DNA of 64,000 nt from an uncultured Bacteroidota bacterium (GTDB taxonomy: Bacteria; Bacteroidota; Bacteroidia; 2-12-FULL-35-15): assembly GCA_903926385.1 (NCBI GenBank), contig CAIYIS010000045.1, forward strand, positions 237,569 to 301,568, given 5' to 3'. A program made the translations under genes and the position numbers. This document shows, in pieces, positions 5,259 to 52,368 of this stretch. The first letter of the stretch is position 1. The number at the start of each line of letters is the position of its first letter. The notes beneath the pieces were generated by a model. That model searched no databases. It was not told the DNA's origin and worked only from the letters and a program-made list of their open reading frames with translations.

Positions 5259-5545
5259 TCGCATCGGAAAGAGGGGCTATCGCATCGGATAAGAGGGCTA
5301 TCGCATCGGAAAGAGGGGCTGTCGCATCGGAAAAGAGGGCTATCGCATCGGAAAAGAGGGCTATCGCATCGGAAAAAGGGGCTATCGCATCGGAAAGAGG
5401 GGCTATCGCATCGGAAAAAGGGGCTATCGCATCGGAAAAGAGGGCTATCGCATCGGAAAGGAGGGCTATCGCATCGGAAAGAGGGGCTATCGCATCGGAA
5501 AGAGGGGCTATCGAATGGGAAAAAGGGGTTATCGCATCGGAAAAC
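5259..5545. repeat. 21-bp tandem repeat array, 14 units
   Basis: Fourteen units of a 21-bp sequence, TCGCATCGGAAAGAGGGGCT-A, stand in exact 21-bp register from 5259 to 5532, the last partial. TCGCATCGG and GGCTA are almost invariant; unit 13 is the most diverged (TCGAATGGG). Variation is confined mainly to the purine run (AAAGAGGGG, AAAAGAGGG, AAAAAGGGG, AAAGGAGGG). One forward frame is open through the array but has no start codon, so it is not read as protein. It ends 51 bp before the ATG of the helical/Fn3-like protein gene at 5597. Confidence 0.97.
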
Positions 5546-5596
5546 GAAATTTTAAAATAAGTAAAACAATAAATTAATAACTAAAAACTAAAGAAT

Positions 5597-6262
5597 ATGC
5601 TAGAATCACATTGTTCAGTGTCGTATCACAAAACAGGAAACGGCAAATTAGAAAATTTCGCGTTAGGAGTTCGCGATGGTTGGTTTAACAACACCACTAT
5701 ATTTACAACTCCACCCATAACCCGCACCGTGTTTGAGGGGTATATTTCGGATTATGCATCCAAATATTCGGCTTATAAACATGGTGGCACAGCTCAGAAA
5801 GGCCCTTTTCTGACTGCAAAAGGTGTATTGATAGGTGCATTGGATAGCTTTGCAGTATCTACCGACACCCGTGCGGCAGGGGATGAGGCTATTATTTTAT
5901 TGGGAGGTTTTGTGCCTACCAAAGTGGTGGAAGTAGCAACTGTACCGCCCGATGTGCCGGTAGTAACTGTTAAAAGAGGCGACTCTACAGGTATTATCAT
6001 GGCATCTTGTCCTACAGTGCCGGGGGCTACAGCTTACGGAGCGTTTATTTGTCTTAATCCGTGGGTAAGTACATTAATTGATGCAGACGGTCAGTTGGTA
6101 ATGGGTCCGGGCGAAAGCTTTATTAAACTGGACTTAAAAAAATCGCGCAAAAAGAAATTTGTAGGCATGGCAGCAGGCAAAACATATTACATTTATTTTT
6201 ATGCTTCTAATGCTGCCGGTGTGAGTGCCCTCAGCGAGGTGAGAAGCATACTGTGTGCATAA
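5597..6262 (+). CDS. Small helical + Fn3-like domain protein (member A of a pair)
   Basis: 221 residues, no signal peptide. Residues about 40-105 look helical and end in a GDEAIILLGGF motif; residues about 118-220 read as a fibronectin type III-like sandwich (PPDVPVVTVKRG, VPGATAYGAF, then AAGKTYYIYFYASNAAG). From memory this two-part layout is that of a Bacteroidota-specific family of roughly 200-residue proteins annotated only as Fn3-containing; no function is known to me. The protein at 50954 shares the GGF-VKEV junction and the AGK-x-x-Y strand, so the two look like divergent relatives. A 21-bp tandem array lies directly upstream and related repeats flank both sides. A strong terminator follows. 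Confidence 0.85.
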   Translation: MLESHCSVSYHKTGNGKLENFALGVRDGWFNNTTIFTTPPITRTVFEGYISDYASKYSAYKHGGTAQKGPFLTAKGVLIGALDSFAVSTDTRAAGDEAIILLGGFVPTKVVEVATVPPDVPVVTVKRGDSTGIIMASCPTVPGATAYGAFICLNPWVSTLIDADGQLVMGPGESFIKLDLKKSRKKKFVGMAAGKTYYIYFYASNAAGVSALSEVRSILCA

Positions 6263-6282: not shown

Positions 6283-6320
6283 AAAAAATCCCGCTCTTAA
6301 ATAAAGGGCGGGATTTTTTT
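6283..6320 (+). terminator. Rho-independent terminator after the Fn3-like gene
   Basis: Stem AAAAAATCCCGC / GCGGGATTTTTT with a 13-nt loop, followed by a T run, 20 bp after the stop codon of the gene ending at 6262. Confidence 0.9.
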
Positions 6321-6620: not shown

Positions 6621-7039
6621 ATTTTGATGTGAATAAAGACGAATTTAAAATCTGAAATTTGTGAAAGAATACGATTTGGGTAGTTGCGGAATACAAAATT
6701 TGGAGTTTTAACGCAAAAAGCCCCCTGTTTTTTACTGCCCGAAAGGTTAAAAACAAACTATTTTTGGTTTTCATCTGCCATTCACCCTGCCAAAAGTACC
6801 GTTCACCTTGCCAAAAGTACCAAATTCTAAAAGTACTACCTTATTGTCAAAAATTAGTTGGTACTTTGCACCAACAAATTTGGCCATATTAATAAATCAT
6901 AAACATGCAATTTAAATTTTACCAATTAAAATAGAATTTGTACGTTTGTTGCCCTAAAAAAAAATAAAGCAAAATCATTATTCAAAATCAATTAGTAATA
7001 ACAATAAAAAAAACAATTTAATCAAAAACAAAAATCAAT
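6621..7039. other. Intergenic region before the Ton operon
   Basis: AT-rich, with no gene seen. It contains two copies of TTCACC(C/T)TGCCAAAAGTACC at 6781 and 6802, 21 bp apart, and a partial third AAAAGTAC at 6829, then GTTGGT-N7-ACCAAC. A -7 promoter element TACGTTTG follows at 6941. Confidence 0.6.
6941..6948 (+). promoter_or_regulatory. Candidate -7 promoter element of the Ton operon (TACGTTTG)
   Basis: TACGTTTG matches TAnnTTTG and lies 92 bp upstream of the exbB start, giving an AT-rich leader of about 85 nt. Confidence 0.5.
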
Positions 7040-7837
7040 ATGAGTAATCAAAAAACAACATCAGGCGGATTTAACTTTATGTCTGCATTAGTAGCAATTG
7101 TAGTATCTATTGCAGTTGGAATTATTATTTACAAAGTAGTGTTAGGAGCAGCCGGAAACTTTGATGTAGAGGGTCACCCAAAACCAGGAAATTATTTAGG
7201 AATGATGTACAAAGGAGGATTTATTGTTCCGTTGTTAATTGGTATCTTAATTATAGTTGTTACTTTTTCTATTGAGCGTTTGATTACTATTGCTCGTGCA
7301 AAAGGAAAAGGAAACACTACCAACTTTGTTAAAAACATTAAAGCCATGATTGCTGCTCATCAATATGACGAAGCAATTACAGCATGTGATAAACAACAAG
7401 GTTCTCTTGCCAATGTGGTTCGTGCAGGTGTTGAAAAACTAAAATCAATTCATGGTGATGGTTCGATGAACAAAGAAACAAAAGTGGCGTCACTTCAAAA
7501 AGAAATTGAAGAAGCAACATCACTTGAGTTACCAATGTTGTCGAAAAATCTTGTTATTATCTCTACATGTGCATCCATTGCTACATTATGGGGGCTAATC
7601 GGAACAGTATTGGGTATGATTCGTTCGTTTGCCGCGTTAGCAGCAGCAGGAGCTCCTGATACCAACGCATTATCTCAAGGTATTTCTGAGGCACTTATCA
7701 ATACCGCTCTTGGTATTACAGCTTCGGTAATCGGAATTATTATGTATAACTATTTTTCTACCCGTGTAGATGCTATTACTTATAGTATGGACGAGGCAGG
7801 TTTTACCATTGTACAATCAGTAAGTGCAGCTGAATAA
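7040..7837 (+). CDS. exbB: ExbB/TolQ/MotA-family proton-channel protein
   Basis: 265 residues with membrane segments near residues 13-36, 55-78, 170-195 and 215-240. The segment carrying TLWGLIGTVLGMIRSF and the later ALINTALGITASVIGII helix are the conserved core of ExbB/TolQ/MotA proteins, which form a pentameric proton channel around ExbD and power TonB. The N-terminal extra membrane segment is usual for Bacteroidota ExbB. First gene of a tightly packed operon with two exbD and one tonB. Confidence 0.95.
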   Translation: MSNQKTTSGGFNFMSALVAIVVSIAVGIIIYKVVLGAAGNFDVEGHPKPGNYLGMMYKGGFIVPLLIGILIIVVTFSIERLITIARAKGKGNTTNFVKNIKAMIAAHQYDEAITACDKQQGSLANVVRAGVEKLKSIHGDGSMNKETKVASLQKEIEEATSLELPMLSKNLVIISTCASIATLWGLIGTVLGMIRSFAALAAAGAPDTNALSQGISEALINTALGITASVIGIIMYNYFSTRVDAITYSMDEAGFTIVQSVSAAE

Positions 7838-16621: not shown

Positions 16622-19600
16622 ATGAAGAAAATTACAAAACCAAAAAAGAAAAATGGCATTTTTAATAGATGCTTATTAGGTTCCGCCATTCTGCTCGGAA
16701 CAACATTAAGTTCATTTGCACAAACAACATTTAATTACACAGGAGCTGTGCAGACGTATACGGTCCCTTCAGGAGTTACTCAGATTACTGTTGATGTGCA
16801 AGGTGCTCAGGGAGGTGATGGTGTCAATGCATCTGTTGGTGCATTTGGAGGTCGTGTACAAGCCACACTTTCGGTTAATCCCGGTGATGTATTAGATGTT
16901 TTTGTTGGTGGTGCTGGTGGCAACTGCGAAACATGTGCATCAGGAGGGTTTAATGGAGGTGGTGGTACGAACGCAATGGTTGGGGGCAATCAAGCTGCCG
17001 GAACCGGTGGTGGTGCTTCTGATATACGAGTTACTCCATATGCGCTCGCAAACAGAATAGTTGTTGGTGGTGGCGGTGGTGGTGGTGGCTACACAGGTGC
17101 TGCTGCTAATGGTGGTGTTGGTGGTGGTTTAATAGGCGGCACTGGAGCTACATGGAGTGGTTATCAAGGCGGAACTGGTGGAACTCAATTTGCAGGAGGG
17201 ATAGGTGGAAATGGCTCATCTAATGGTCAGCCAAACGCAGGCGATGGTACCTTCGGATTTGGAGGTGCCGGTCAGGGATGGTCAGGCGGTGGTGGCGGTG
17301 CCGGTGGTGGTTATTACGGTGGTGGCGGAGGTTTCATCGGTGGTGGTGGAGGTGGAAGCAACTATGCAGATGCAGGAGCTACCTCGGTATCTCATACTGC
17401 AGGCTACAGAGCAGGAAACGGGCTGGTAATCATTACACCGATAGTTTCGGGTCCGACAATTTCCTCCTTTACACCTAACAGCGGATGCCCTAATTCTACC
17501 TCAGTTGTTATTACAGGTACTAATTTTACAGGTATCACTGCAGTTCTTTTTGGGGGAACCAATGCACTTTCTTTTACAGTTAATTCTTCAACTCAAATAA
17601 CGGCAACTGTCGGAGTCGGATCCACCGGAACTATACAGGTGGTGGGCAGCACTACAGCTACTAGTATCGGTACATTTACCGTAAATGCTTTACCTGCCGC
17701 TCCTACTGCTGTTACTGCTACTCCTGCTTCGATTTGTGCAGGCAACTCATCCAATCTTAATGCAACATCCGTAGGTAACACCATCAATTGGTGGGATGCC
17801 GCATCAGGAGGAACCTTACTTACAAATGTTGCCAGTGGAACTAATTATTCGGTAATGCCGTCAGCTACCACAACATATTTTGCCGAATCTCAAAATGCAG
17901 TTTCAGGAGGTAGTGGTTCACAAACTTTCAATTATACCGGTGCTGTCCAAACGTTTACTGTTCCTGCAGGTGTTATAAGTTTAACCATCGACTCGAGAGG
18001 TGCTCAAGGTGGTGCTGCAACAAATCCATCAGTAGGACCAGGAGCTAACGGTGGAAGGGTGCAGGCTACTATCTCGGTTACTCCCGGTGATGTCTTAAAT
18101 ATTAATGTAGGAGGAATGGGAGTTGATGGAACTACCGGCTCTGGTGGTACCGGAGGTTTTAATGGTGGTGGTGCCGGAGCATTGTATCCCGGCAACTATG
18201 CTGGTGGTGGCGGTGGTGGAGCTTCCGATATTCGCGTTAGCCCTTATACCCTAAATGACCGTTTGGTGGTAGCCGGTGGCGGTGGCGGTGGTGCATATAA
18301 TTATAGTACGGCAGGTGCCGACAGAGGAGGAATGGGTGGAGGAACTATTGGTGAAGGTGGATATTCCGGAAGTGTTCTTTTAGGCAACGGTTACGCTGGA
18401 AATGGCGGTACACAATCTGCCGGTGGAACTGCCGGAAATTATACCAGTTATTGCATAGCTTCTGATGGTGTTTTAGGTGTTGGTGGAGCAGGCGGACCGT
18501 GTACCAATTCCGGTGGCGGTGGTGGTGGCGGTTTCTATGGAGGAGGTGGTGGTGTTTGGGCCGGAGGAGGTGGCGGAAGCAGTTTCCCTGCTGGTGCTAC
18601 TCACACACAGGGTTACCAAACCGGAAATGGTCAGGTTATTATTTCATGGGTTAGCACTATTCTAGGTTGTGCCAGCTCTACAAGAACTTCGGTTGATGTT
18701 ATTGTAACTCCTTTACCTGTTATCACTTCTTCATCAGCTACAGCATCTTCAATTTGTGTAGGCGATACTTCCGACTTAAATGCTGTATCACTTGGTAATA
18801 CCATTAATTGGTGGAACGCTGCATCAGGCGGAACATTACTTACAAGCGTACCAAGCGGAACAGACTACTCTGTAAGTCCAACTTCAACTACTACTTATTA
18901 TGCAGAAGGCGTCACTCCAAGTTCAGCAAGCAGTATCCTTAATGGTACTGTTGCAGCTAACAGCAGTGGCGGAACCTATACGTTGGGTTATACCTTTACT
19001 CCATCGTCAACACTTACGGTTACAGGTGTGAGAAGATATTTTGGTACAAAAATTTCTGTATGGGATAACGCTGGAACTTTACTTATGACTCAAGCTTGCT
19101 CGGGTACAGATGGTGTTTGGTCAACTACTCCATGTACACCTCTTGTTTTAAATGCCGGTTCTACTTATTACATTGGAGCTTGGACTAATGGAGGTGCCTA
19201 TTATTGGGATTTCCCTTCTTACCCATATGTGCTTTCTGCCGGAACTATTGGTTATGGTCAGTATGCTTCTACTGATTCTTGGCCTTCCATCTCAGATCTT
19301 GGAATGTTTTATGTGGACTTAGAATTTTCCGGTGGAACAGGTGGTTGTACAAGCGTTTCCAGAACAGCTGTAACTGTAACCGTAAATCAATTACCTACTG
19401 TATCTGCCAACGCATCAGCAACAACAATATGCGCAGGAGATGCTGAAACATTGACTGGTAGCGGTGCTGTGTCTTATGTTTGGGACAATAGTGTAACAGA
19501 TGGAGTAAGCTTCAATCCAACTTCAACAGTAACTTACAATGTTACCGGAACAGATGGTAACGGTTGTATGAATACAGCATCAGTATTGGTTAACGTAAAT

Positions 19601-20725
19601 CAATTACCTACTGTATCTGCCAACGCATCAGCAACAACAATATGCGCAGGAGATGCTGAAACCTTAACAGGTAGCGGTGCTGTGTCTTATGTTTGGGACA
19701 ACAGTGTAACCGATGGTGTAACGTTCAATCCAACTTCAACAGTAACTTATAATGTAACGGGAACAGATGGTAACGGTTGTATGAACACAGCATCAGTATT
19801 GGTTAACGTAAATCAATTACCTGCTGTATCTGCCAATGCATCTTCTACCAGTATTTGTATGGGCGATGCGGAAACCTTAACTGGTAGCGGTGCTGTATCC
19901 TATGTTTGGGACAACAGTGTAACAGATGGAGTAAGCTTCAATCCAACTTCAACAGTAACTTACAATGTTACCGGAACAGATGGTAACGGTTGTATGAATA
20001 CAGCATCAGTATTGGTTAACGTAAATCAATTACCTACTGTATCTGCCAATGCATCTTCTACCAGTATTTGTATGGGCGATGCCGAAACCCTGACAGGTGG
20101 AGGTGCCGTATCCTATGTTTGGGATAACAACGTAACAGATGGAGTAAGCTTCAATCCTACTTCAACTGTAACCTATAATGTAACCGGAACGGATGGTAAT
20201 GGATGTATGAACACAGCATCAGTTTTGGTGAATGTAAACACATTGCCAACTGTAACTTATACCGAAACAACGTTGTTTTCTTGCGTAAACTGGGCTCCGT
20301 TTTCACTTGCAACCGGCACTCCTGTAGGAGGTGTTTATTCTGGAATTGGAGTAGCAGGAACTAATTTCGACCCTGCTGCTGCAGGTGCAGGAACTGCTAA
20401 TGTTACCTATACCTATACCGATGGTAATGGTTGTGCAGGTTCTGCTTCATCAGCTCTTACTGTAGATGCCTGTACAGGTATAAGCACTATTACTGCTTCA
20501 ACTGCAATTGCAGTCTATCCAAATCCTTCAAATGGTGTTTATAACATTACCATCAGCGAACCAACACAAGTAACTGTTTACAATGCTTTGGGTCAAGTGG
20601 TGTTAATTCAAGAAGTAAATGCTAACACCACTCAAATCGATTTGAGTAAAATGATGAATGGTATTTATACTTTAAATGCGGTTACGGCAAATCATCAGCA
20701 AACCATCCGTTTGATAAAAAACTAA
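16622..20725 (+). CDS. Giant T9SS-exported glycine-rich / Ig-like surface protein
   Basis: 1367 residues with a long basic signal peptide cleaved near SSFAQ. Two glycine-rich domains (about 36-275 and 432-680, each opening with FNYTGAVQT and rich in GGGGGG) enclose a TIG/IPT-like domain (about 277-355) and an Ig-like domain. A third Ig-like segment and a DUF4082-like jelly-roll (about 763-905) follow, then four 71-residue repeats (923-1206), one diverged repeat and a type A T9SS sorting domain (VYPNPSNGVYNI near 1300). This is the build of a cell-surface adhesin or matrix protein. The near-identical 213-bp DNA repeats may allow copy-number change. Confidence 0.88.
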   Translation: MKKITKPKKKNGIFNRCLLGSAILLGTTLSSFAQTTFNYTGAVQTYTVPSGVTQITVDVQGAQGGDGVNASVGAFGGRVQATLSVNPGDVLDVFVGGAGGNCETCASGGFNGGGGTNAMVGGNQAAGTGGGASDIRVTPYALANRIVVGGGGGGGGYTGAAANGGVGGGLIGGTGATWSGYQGGTGGTQFAGGIGGNGSSNGQPNAGDGTFGFGGAGQGWSGGGGGAGGGYYGGGGGFIGGGGGGSNYADAGATSVSHTAGYRAGNGLVIITPIVSGPTISSFTPNSGCPNSTSVVITGTNFTGITAVLFGGTNALSFTVNSSTQITATVGVGSTGTIQVVGSTTATSIGTFTVNALPAAPTAVTATPASICAGNSSNLNATSVGNTINWWDAASGGTLLTNVASGTNYSVMPSATTTYFAESQNAVSGGSGSQTFNYTGAVQTFTVPAGVISLTIDSRGAQGGAATNPSVGPGANGGRVQATISVTPGDVLNINVGGMGVDGTTGSGGTGGFNGGGAGALYPGNYAGGGGGGASDIRVSPYTLNDRLVVAGGGGGGAYNYSTAGADRGGMGGGTIGEGGYSGSVLLGNGYAGNGGTQSAGGTAGNYTSYCIASDGVLGVGGAGGPCTNSGGGGGGGFYGGGGGVWAGGGGGSSFPAGATHTQGYQTGNGQVIISWVSTILGCASSTRTSVDVIVTPLPVITSSSATASSICVGDTSDLNAVSLGNTINWWNAASGGTLLTSVPSGTDYSVSPTSTTTYYAEGVTPSSASSILNGTVAANSSGGTYTLGYTFTPSSTLTVTGVRRYFGTKISVWDNAGTLLMTQACSGTDGVWSTTPCTPLVLNAGSTYYIGAWTNGGAYYWDFPSYPYVLSAGTIGYGQYASTDSWPSISDLGMFYVDLEFSGGTGGCTSVSRTAVTVTVNQLPTVSANASATTICAGDAETLTGSGAVSYVWDNSVTDGVSFNPTSTVTYNVTGTDGNGCMNTASVLVNVNQLPTVSANASATTICAGDAETLTGSGAVSYVWDNSVTDGVTFNPTSTVTYNVTGTDGNGCMNTASVLVNVNQLPAVSANASSTSICMGDAETLTGSGAVSYVWDNSVTDGVSFNPTSTVTYNVTGTDGNGCMNTASVLVNVNQLPTVSANASSTSICMGDAETLTGGGAVSYVWDNNVTDGVSFNPTSTVTYNVTGTDGNGCMNTASVLVNVNTLPTVTYTETTLFSCVNWAPFSLATGTPVGGVYSGIGVAGTNFDPAAAGAGTANVTYTYTDGNGCAGSASSALTVDACTGISTITASTAIAVYPNPSNGVYNITISEPTQVTVYNALGQVVLIQEVNANTTQIDLSKMMNGIYTLNAVTANHQQTIRLIKN
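19388..20239 (+). repeat. Four tandem 213-bp coding repeats
   Basis: Units begin at 19388, 19601, 19814 and 20027, each starting CAATTACCT and encoding QLPxVSANAS to VLVNVN. Units 1 and 2 share the ICAGDAE variant, units 3 and 4 the ICMGDAE variant, so duplication went in pairs. Confidence 0.97.
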
Positions 20726-20855: not shown

Positions 20856-20936
20856 TCGAGGAGGATGTGAATCTTATATTTCCAGACGCCTAGCTTATAT
20901 TTCCGTCTTCCCCGCTTAGATTTGCGTCCTCCTCAA
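20856..20936. repeat. Short element of the 51.7-kb repeat family, reversed
   Basis: Read on the minus strand it begins GAGGAGGACGCAAATCT and ends AAGATTCACATCCTCC-TCGAAAA. The 51691-51870 array has the same two ends (GAGGAGGACGCTAATCT, AAGATTCACATCCTCC-CCGAAAA). Between the ends are three 21-bp units (20912-20932, 20891-20911, 20870-20890 reading leftward), the second opening GGAAGACGGAAAT as in the longer array. Ends are roughly inverted copies of each other (GAGGAGGA...AATCTT). Confidence 0.85.
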
Positions 20937-50953: not shown

Positions 50954-51655
50954 ATGAAAAAATTAAATTTTAAGAGCGAACGTGTTTTTAAAAAAGCGTT
51001 TCGCAAAAAACTAAAAAAGAGTAAAAAGAGTAGTATTGCCGCTGTAGTGGCTATGAGTATTGTGTTGCCTGTTCATCAGGTAACAGGTGTTTTGATGTTT
51101 CCGAAAGATAAAAACGGACGCAAAAACCGGGCTACAGATATAGTGGCCGGTTGCACAAGCAATACGTGGGTAACCATAGATGTAGCCGTATTAACCGCAG
51201 TAACATTGGCCATTACCAATTATGGTAGTGCCTTAGCCAGCGACAGGCCGGGGCTGTTTACCATTATGAAAAATGCCATTATCGAAAAATTGTTGGTTCC
51301 TTTTCAGGCTGCAGCCAATGCCAATCCGGTAGAAAGCCGCAGAATTTTAGAAAGTGGTGGGTTTAAAGTTAAAGAAGTGGCCATTCCTCAAATAAAGGAA
51401 TTCAAATGCCAGGATGGTACTTCTTCGGGTTCGGTAGATTTGATTACTGCAGGTGGGCCTAAAAACAAAGCTCATTTGCATCAGTGGTACAGTTCTATAG
51501 ATGGTATTAATTTTACTAGAGAACAAGCCACCACTGGTATTCGTACCACCATCACTAATCTGCCGGCTGGCAAATATGCCTATTTTACTACCGAATTATG
51601 CGTTCAGGATGTCAAACAAGGCATGTCTCAGATTATTCGGATAATGGTAAAATAA
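50954..51655 (+). CDS. Small helical + Fn3-like domain protein (member B of a pair)
   Basis: 233 residues. The first 40 are extremely basic (FKKAFRKKLKKSKKSS) and run into a hydrophobic stretch SIAAVVAMSIVLPVH, which may be a membrane anchor or signal. Residues about 70-150 look helical and end in ILESGGFKVKEVAI; an Fn3-like sandwich follows, with PAGKYAYFTTEL near 210. The GGF-VKEV junction and AGK-x-Y strand recur in the protein at 5597. Function unknown. A 21-bp tandem array and a terminator directly follow, inside the likely transcript. Confidence 0.82.
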   Translation: MKKLNFKSERVFKKAFRKKLKKSKKSSIAAVVAMSIVLPVHQVTGVLMFPKDKNGRKNRATDIVAGCTSNTWVTIDVAVLTAVTLAITNYGSALASDRPGLFTIMKNAIIEKLLVPFQAAANANPVESRRILESGGFKVKEVAIPQIKEFKCQDGTSSGSVDLITAGGPKNKAHLHQWYSSIDGINFTREQATTGIRTTITNLPAGKYAYFTTELCVQDVKQGMSQIIRIMVK

Positions 51656-51690
51656 GCAAAAAGGCCAAAAACGCCTCCGAAAAAAGTCGA

Positions 51691-51870
51691 GGAGGACGCT
51701 AATCTTGGAAAGGAAGACGGTAATCCAAGAAAGGCGAACGGTAATCTTGGAAAGGCGAACGGTAATCCAAGAAAGGAGGACGGAAATCCAAGAAAGGCGA
51801 ACGGTAATCTTGGAAAGGCGAACGGTAATCCAAGAAAGGCGAACGGTAATCCAAGATTCACATCCTCCCC
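51691..51870. repeat. 21-bp tandem array with inverted terminal ends, 8 units
   Basis: Eight 21-bp units (51691-51858) of the form GGCGAACGGTAAT-core-AA, where the 6-bp core is CCAAGA or its exact reverse complement TCTTGG. Core order over units 1-8 is T, C, T, C, C, T, C, C (T = TCTTGG). The array opens with GAGGAGGACGCTAATCTT and closes with AAGATTCACATCCTCC, roughly inverted copies. The same two ends bound the element at 20856-20936. Every frame is open because 21 is a multiple of three. Confidence 0.95.
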
Positions 51871-51890
51871 GAAAAGTAACAAAAACACCA

Positions 51891-51927
51891 CCCCTCTGTT
51901 TGAGCACATCCAAACAGAGGGGTTTTT
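51891..51927 (+). terminator. Rho-independent terminator after the 21-bp array
   Basis: Perfect 12-bp stem CCCCTCTGTTTG / CAAACAGAGGGG around an 8-nt loop, then TTTTT. The array thus lies in the 3' untranslated region of the Fn3-like gene. Confidence 0.94.
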
Positions 51928-52368
51928 ATGCCCAAAACCTATACCTATACTATTATATATAGTGTAAAACTCCCCCCTCCCCACTCTTGGAGTTAGCCAT
52001 ACTGTCGACTCAATGTATCTTTTGTGCCGTTTAATTGGATTTTTTGTGTATGTTTGTGGGGTGAGGGGGGGGCTTTATGTATTGTCTCGTTCCACAACTG
52101 AATGTGAAATTAGAATGAGATGCTCTCAGGAACAGAAAAATAAAAAACTATCGAAACAGCAAACTTTCGTAAGTCTTAATTAAAAGTATAGACTAGCGAA
52201 AGTTTTAGTAAAAATGTTTCGGATATGGATATGTTATCAGAAATTTTACGAACGAGTACCAACAACGTCAGCGGAAATTGCAAGGGCGAAAACGGGTTAC
52301 ATTATTTAACAGAACTTGAAAATAAAAAGATAAATTTGCACCCTGTGAATTATAACAACAGAAACTAA
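51928..52368. other. Intergenic region before the restriction-modification genes
   Basis: No gene seen. An imperfect 16-bp inverted repeat (AAACTTTCGTAAGTCT at 52161-52176; AGACTAGCGAAAGTTT at 52190-52205; 14 of 16 pairs) with a 13-bp spacer lies 163 bp before the methyltransferase, and a -7 element TAAATTTG at 52331-52338. Confidence 0.6.
52331..52338 (+). promoter_or_regulatory. Candidate -7 promoter element of the restriction-modification operon (TAAATTTG)
   Basis: TAAATTTG fits TAnnTTTG and lies 31 bp before the methyltransferase ATG. Confidence 0.5.

Follow-up and report, generated by a model that had tools for sequence, protein, structure and literature searches.

The DNA analysed in this study, referred to below as the window, is a stretch of 64,000 nt of an uncultured Bacteroidota bacterium (Bacteroidia; 2-12-FULL-35-15), corresponding to positions 237,569-301,568 on the forward strand of contig CAIYIS010000045.1 (assembly GCA_903926385.1). 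It contains two genes, each of which is accompanied by a tandem array of 21-bp units, and a third, short element. Throughout the text C-numbers denote contigs of the home genome (G000), L-numbers denote loci and other G-numbers denote other genomes. The features of the window are as follows:

5259..5545, strand not assigned: array 1, composed of 13 full 21-bp units (TCGCATCGGAAAGAGGGGCTA) and a partial 14th
5597..6262, + strand: P0001, 221 aa, with a predicted helical bundle (residues 15-102) and a predicted Fn3 domain (106-219)
6285..6320, + strand: likely intrinsic terminator 3' of P0001, read from the sequence as a hairpin (AATCCCGCTCTTAAATAAAGGGCGGGATT) followed by a T-run
20856..20936, - strand: short solo A-type element, with both inverted-repeat ends and 2-3 degraded 21-bp units
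50954..51655, + strand: P0002, 233 aa, with a disordered basic N-terminus, a helical bundle (53-134) and an Fn3 domain (151-231)
51687..51872, + strand: gene-linked A-type element, with inverted-repeat ends (TCGAGGAGGACGCTAATCTTGG / CCAAGATTCACATCCTCCCCGA) around array 2; cores CTTGG and CCAAG
51890..51928 (approximately), + strand: strong intrinsic terminator 3' of array 2, with a 13-bp stem and a T-run

The units of array 1 follow one another at intervals of 21 bp throughout, with zero indels, and the P0001 reading frame starts approximately 50 bp later. Array 2 consists of 8 units (51701-51856), likewise all 21 bp apart with zero indels, and it is situated 35-45 bp past the stop codon of P0002; since it lies between this stop codon and the terminator, it falls within the likely transcript. 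The unit sequences of the two arrays are unlike. The first-pass annotation of this DNA had described the arrays as exactly 21-bp periodic, placed about 50 bp upstream of P0001 and about 35 bp downstream of P0002 (inside its transcript), and as unlike in sequence but equal in period, and the spacings, the terminator and the units themselves agree with this description. It had also recognized two gene-array pairings. Both of these are real, but the dispersed elements with inverted ends, the solo copies and the third element of the window (20856-20936), which has no adjoining gene of the family, were overlooked. Two other repeats are present in the window: an unrelated 21-bp unit (TTCACCCTGCCAAAAGTACCG) occurs twice downstream of P0001 (6781-6821), and a 213-bp tandem repeat in 4 copies (19381-20254) is located within a 1367-aa ORF (16622-20725).

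P0001 and P0002 are distant members of one family (identity about 13-19%), which were joined only by iterative profile search. The AlphaFold2 models of both proteins (mean pLDDT 84.5 each, with a pTM of ~0.5 that makes the domain arrangement uncertain) show a helical bundle with an Fn3-like beta domain behind it, in agreement with the shared helical front and Fn3-like back proposed in the initial reading. Pfam fn3 matches 4 of the 38 members, and the significant matches to solved structures obtained in the fold search were to Fn3 domains only. Profile and fold searches of the family recognized no catalytic or known DNA-binding domain; P0001 and P0002 have no transposase match in Pfam, NCBIfam or PHROGs, and no match to ParB, ribbon-helix-helix or Rep proteins was found. 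P0001 does not have the basic tail that P0002 has. In the four pairs of related genes for which dN/dS was calculated, three being paralogous pairs of the home genome, it amounted to 0.15-0.26, which indicates that the genes are maintained by purifying selection.

With regard to known defence systems, PADLOC gives no match for P0002, and one weak ZorA match was recorded among the 38 members. Two candidate classifications of the genes were rejected: a phage or plasmid origin, as P0002 has no relatives in viral contigs, phages or plasmids, and a type III toxin-antitoxin system, as a ToxN/PemK endoribonuclease fold is lacking and the fold search finds Fn3 only. A second helical family (~320 aa) was observed 75-157 bp downstream of 21-bp arrays (L027:17441-18394, L049:1854-2822, L036:12743-13693 and L045:4836-5822); three scanned members of this family have no Pfam match.

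The figures for the home genome cover 1.52 of its 4.27 Mb. Among the lags from 10 to 69, three stood out in this sample, with 52 (lag 21), 61 (lag 42) and 45 (lag 63) qualifying arrays; the remaining lags had 0-5 each. A shuffled-sequence control produced zero arrays, except for one masked contig. The 21-bp arrays are not a product of chance. In total, 71 arrays were intergenic and one was located within a long gene; by extrapolation, there are ~200 arrays per genome. About 50 of the 71 sampled arrays adjoin unrelated genes. CRISPR arrays were considered and rejected, as successive units join directly, head to tail with an exact spacing of 21 bp, and have no spacers between them. Repeats in multiples of 7 bp, including heptamers (e.g. 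AGTTTAA), were also observed in intergenic regions, at L126 and other loci.

We examined how often genes of this kind are found next to an array. When this and similar helical families are counted together in the sampled 1.52 Mb, an array occurs no more than 400 bp away from 20 of their 23 genes. This figure is partly circular, since the models of some families had array neighbours as their seeds; among the members not used as seeds, 4 of 7 have an array. Because of this partial circularity, it is the test in other genomes, where members were picked by protein alone, that carries the weight. There, a 21-bp array is situated no further than 300 bp from 27 of 51 members (25 of 49 after removal of two duplicated places), and the background, measured on other genes of the home genome, is about 5% (27 of 536 within 300 bp). 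The first-pass annotation had set this comparison in advance as the means of refuting the pairing, and the pairing came through it.

At periods of 15-30 bp other than 21 there was at most one linked array each, with the exception of 28 (a harmonic of 84). The location of the array depends on the clade: members of the P0002 clade have it 15-87 bp downstream of the gene, and other clades have it for the most part upstream (31-360 bp in most), with a few downstream exceptions (e.g. L076, L062 and the home-genome C72/C45-start pair). The linkage reaches further families of the class. A scan of genome contigs returned two loci only, both from one MAG, and G185 has four family members, with a 100-kb sample that holds no array besides one linked. 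The pairing of gene and array is real, and it extends across the class.

It might be argued that the arrays are neutral minisatellites, whose unit length of 21 bp is favoured by slippage or template switching at hairpins, and that the genes are situated in insertion-tolerant regions. Concerted evolution is indeed apparent within arrays, with cores inverted in place, and heptamer repeats are present elsewhere in the genome. Moreover, random placement weighted by gap length gave a mean of 11, compared with 20 observed, although this test is biased in the conservative direction (arrays enlarge their own gaps) and is not the main one. On the other hand, neutrality does not account for the exclusive period across the families of the class or for the conservation of side and distance. 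It is also at odds with the near absence of arrays from four genomes without detected members (in two of these, members were searched by the P0002-type profile alone), in which 398 kb of sampled DNA contained one weak AT-rich heptamer-type array. We consider this explanation very improbable.

The upstream position of the arrays in most clades other than that of P0002 would also be expected of cis-regulatory or promoter arrays recognized by an unrelated regulator, with the copy number of the units tuning the neighbour genes. Gene pairs are divergent at 25 of 66 arrays, compared with 110 of 392 large gaps. However, this excess is small, the array sequences vary by locus, and in the P0002 clade the arrays are exclusively downstream, which leaves the regulatory explanation very improbable.

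The folding of the arrays was of interest with respect to the question of whether they act as DNA or RNA. Their fold potential exceeds that of unit-permuted controls (mean z -1.3 for 68 arrays, 19% of them positive). Dyad or alternating cores are clear in many arrays and weak or absent in array 1, which has no folding excess. The array of L002 folds as one long rod (z -8.95) and array 2 together with its terminator reaches z -5.05, values to be read with the tendency of dinucleotide shuffles to overstate z for repeats. Both examples, and the location of array 2 between stop codon and terminator, would fit a structured RNA (in the 5' or 3' UTR) that regulates the neighbour gene or forms a complex with its protein. 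Against this, folding in the 40 linked arrays is without sense-strand preference (14 vs 20, p=0.21), array 1 is unfolded, arrays occur on either side of the genes and in many cases far from any gene of the family, and Rfam has no match in the window. The RNA reading was rejected as the main model on account of array 1 and the strand symmetry of the linked arrays, and it is retained as a decidedly unlikely rival. The excess of folding without sense-strand preference, combined with the exact two-turn period, favours the view that the arrays function as DNA.

Further copies of the array-2 type are spread over several sites of the genome, beside unrelated genes. Their ends are inverted repeats, made up of TCGGGGAGGATGTGAA plus the cores of the first and last units, and two types can be distinguished by the core, A (CTTGG/CCAAG) and B (ACCGGGT/ACCCGGT). 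The A and B elements are often paired (A then B, ~50 bp apart). Solo elements of the A/B types are present on C5, C18, C28, C42, C48, C59, C61 and C77, as well as at position 20856 of the window. The A/B end pattern has 21 exact matches genome-wide, and all 21 are ends of array elements; one mismatch adds 4 more matches, 3 of which are element ends and one of which (C59:67674) is unexplained. The A-type end pattern is absent from 36 relatives, which points to species-specific spread. Array 1 has three solo relatives (C57, C8 and C48), of which the C8 and C48 copies show either a clear dyad within the unit or a core that alternates with its inverse. Approximately half of all arrays have inverted-repeat ends scoring above shuffled controls, a score that is partly inflated, as palindromic units score too. 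No target-site duplication was seen by eye at the A-type copies.

Among 11 groups of arrays sharing a unit sequence, none had two gene-linked members and 7 had exactly one. Label shuffles gave no group with two linked members in 19% of cases and both conditions together in 5% (P ~0.05); the presence of at most one gene-linked copy per array sequence family is therefore suggestive only. Several array clusters lack a linked gene within the third of the genome that was sampled. On C83, a truncated P0002-like gene (L127, ~6850-7360), of which the 3' end only is present, lies beside a C61-type array.

The structure of these elements raises the possibility of the arrays being MITE-like elements, non-autonomous and built around a minisatellite, that are mobilized by an IS or RAYT transposase, with the genes as passengers or preferred neighbours. 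As in MITEs, inverted-repeat ends enclose a dispersed intergenic minisatellite in the A/B elements, and RAYT genes or fragments adjoin 21-bp arrays on C1 and C42 (L033:1-477, L117:5254-5520). A precedent is provided by the BrickBuilt MITE of Porphyromonas gingivalis, which has repeats of 23 bp and inverted ends that are short (PMC4596501). The ends of a MITE should, however, be common to an autonomous insertion sequence, and in this genome every exact match to the A-type ends is the end of an array and none flanks a transposase. There are 8 RAYT matches, several of them fragments, for ~200 estimated arrays, and passenger status would leave the clade-specific side and distance, the purifying selection and the class-wide linkage unaccounted for. 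This origin of the unit appears unlikely to us. As individual drivers, RAYT was rejected because of the small number and fragmentary state of its genome matches, and an IS parent of the A/B ends because none was found in the genome, as represented by an assembly of 85 contigs from which an IS could be missing.

Tandem dyad-bearing sites located beside the gene of their binding protein are typical of F-plasmid sopC and of other partition or iteron arrays. The arrays described here differ in being chromosomal, with an estimated ~200 per genome, and in having partner proteins without a ParB, ribbon-helix-helix or Rep match. The closest system in organisation is RAYT-REP/BIME (REP-associated tyrosine transposases and their repeats), which also combines one gene beside its own repeats (in our case usually on one side) with many solo intergenic copies. 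Its tandem units have cores of alternating orientation, a feature that is clear in many of our arrays and weak or absent in array 1. The capture of gene 3' ends between repeats, reported for rayt genes (PMC2817692), is a further common feature. The differences lie in the protein, which combines a helical bundle with an Fn3 domain and has no match to a transposase (Y1/HUH tyrosine transposase in RAYT-REP), and in the repeats, which have a period fixed at 21 bp, vary in sequence from array to array and are mostly one-sided.

In element anatomy BrickBuilt is the closest: its minisatellite, intergenic and with units of about two helical turns, is bounded by inverted-repeat ends and dispersed through the genome of a member of the Bacteroidota. 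It comprises 23-bp units of one sequence family in 19 copies, its ends match IS5 elements and it has no linked gene family (PMC4596501), whereas here the period is 21 bp, there are many sequence families, no matching IS was found and a gene is linked. The TAACTGA heptamer arrays are abundant intergenic direct repeats, which have been reported from some Bacteroidetes as well; they are built of one fixed heptamer, and the portion of the report considered here mentions no inverted ends or helical/Fn3 partner gene (PMC4679880). The earlier proposal that the gene and array form a unit outside known feature types is supported; the linkage persists and the definitions of RAYT-REP and MITE apply only in part. 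The genes with their own arrays, and the copies of these arrays scattered without the gene, suggest an undescribed protein-plus-repeat system rather than coincidence, with the qualification that the literature compared was open-licence and that a subscription journal may contain a description.

It is conceivable, though somewhat short of probable, that the helical-bundle/Fn3 gene is the sole protein-coding partner of a private 21-bp array family, and that the array is a DNA platform. Such a platform would present a site at every second turn of B-DNA, which would allow molecules of the cognate protein to line up on one face of the DNA, probably via the dyad core. The array would be the dispersing part: array-bearing elements might be copied to new intergenic places by recombination or transposition machinery from elsewhere, not supplied by the protein, which could then act in trans, by binding or bridging, on the linked array and on the solo copies. 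The organisation would resemble that of RAYT-REP with a non-enzymatic protein. The first-pass annotation had offered three roles for the arrays, namely binding the protein, shaping the DNA and driving the spread of the unit. Of these, spread of the arrays is supported by the dispersed, species-specific solo copies. We infer binding from the period of two helical turns, from the dyads seen in many arrays and from the absence of a strand bias; we also infer the mobility and role of the unit.

This cognate-protein reading is the best supported of those considered and is put forward tentatively. In its favour are the linkage, the exclusivity of the period, the solo copies, the dN/dS values, the excess of dyads and the gene capture on C83. 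Counted against it are the lack of a recognizable DNA-binding or catalytic fold, the unfolded array 1, the missing basic tail of P0001, the many arrays adjoining unrelated genes (~50 of 71), the clusters without a gene, the case of G185 and the fact that no target-site duplication was seen. A more general proposition, doubtful but possible, is that of a hitherto undescribed two-part system of Bacteroidota, in which the members of a large family of non-enzymatic helical-bundle/Fn3 proteins each recognize their own DNA array of two-helical-turn period, the linked array being the source and the solo arrays the dispersed targets, and in which the protein would mark, bridge or spread its private sites. 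The pairing ties together two unknowns of the Bacteroidota, recurrent small helical/Fn3 proteins and intergenic 21-bp minisatellites, and makes their function directly testable. If the reading is true, repeat and protein would form a system that has no transposase and whose arrays change fast in sequence, with the period and the protein staying fixed.

Two further observations concern the A/B elements. The short B-type array of L121 (4175-4390, on C59) is enclosed by flanks, including the terminator, which match the surroundings of array 2 (A type) in the window, and it looks as if the core of the array had been swapped. In addition, A/B elements are located at or near contig ends on C28, C61, C77, C18 and C42 (in the last case ~530 bp away).
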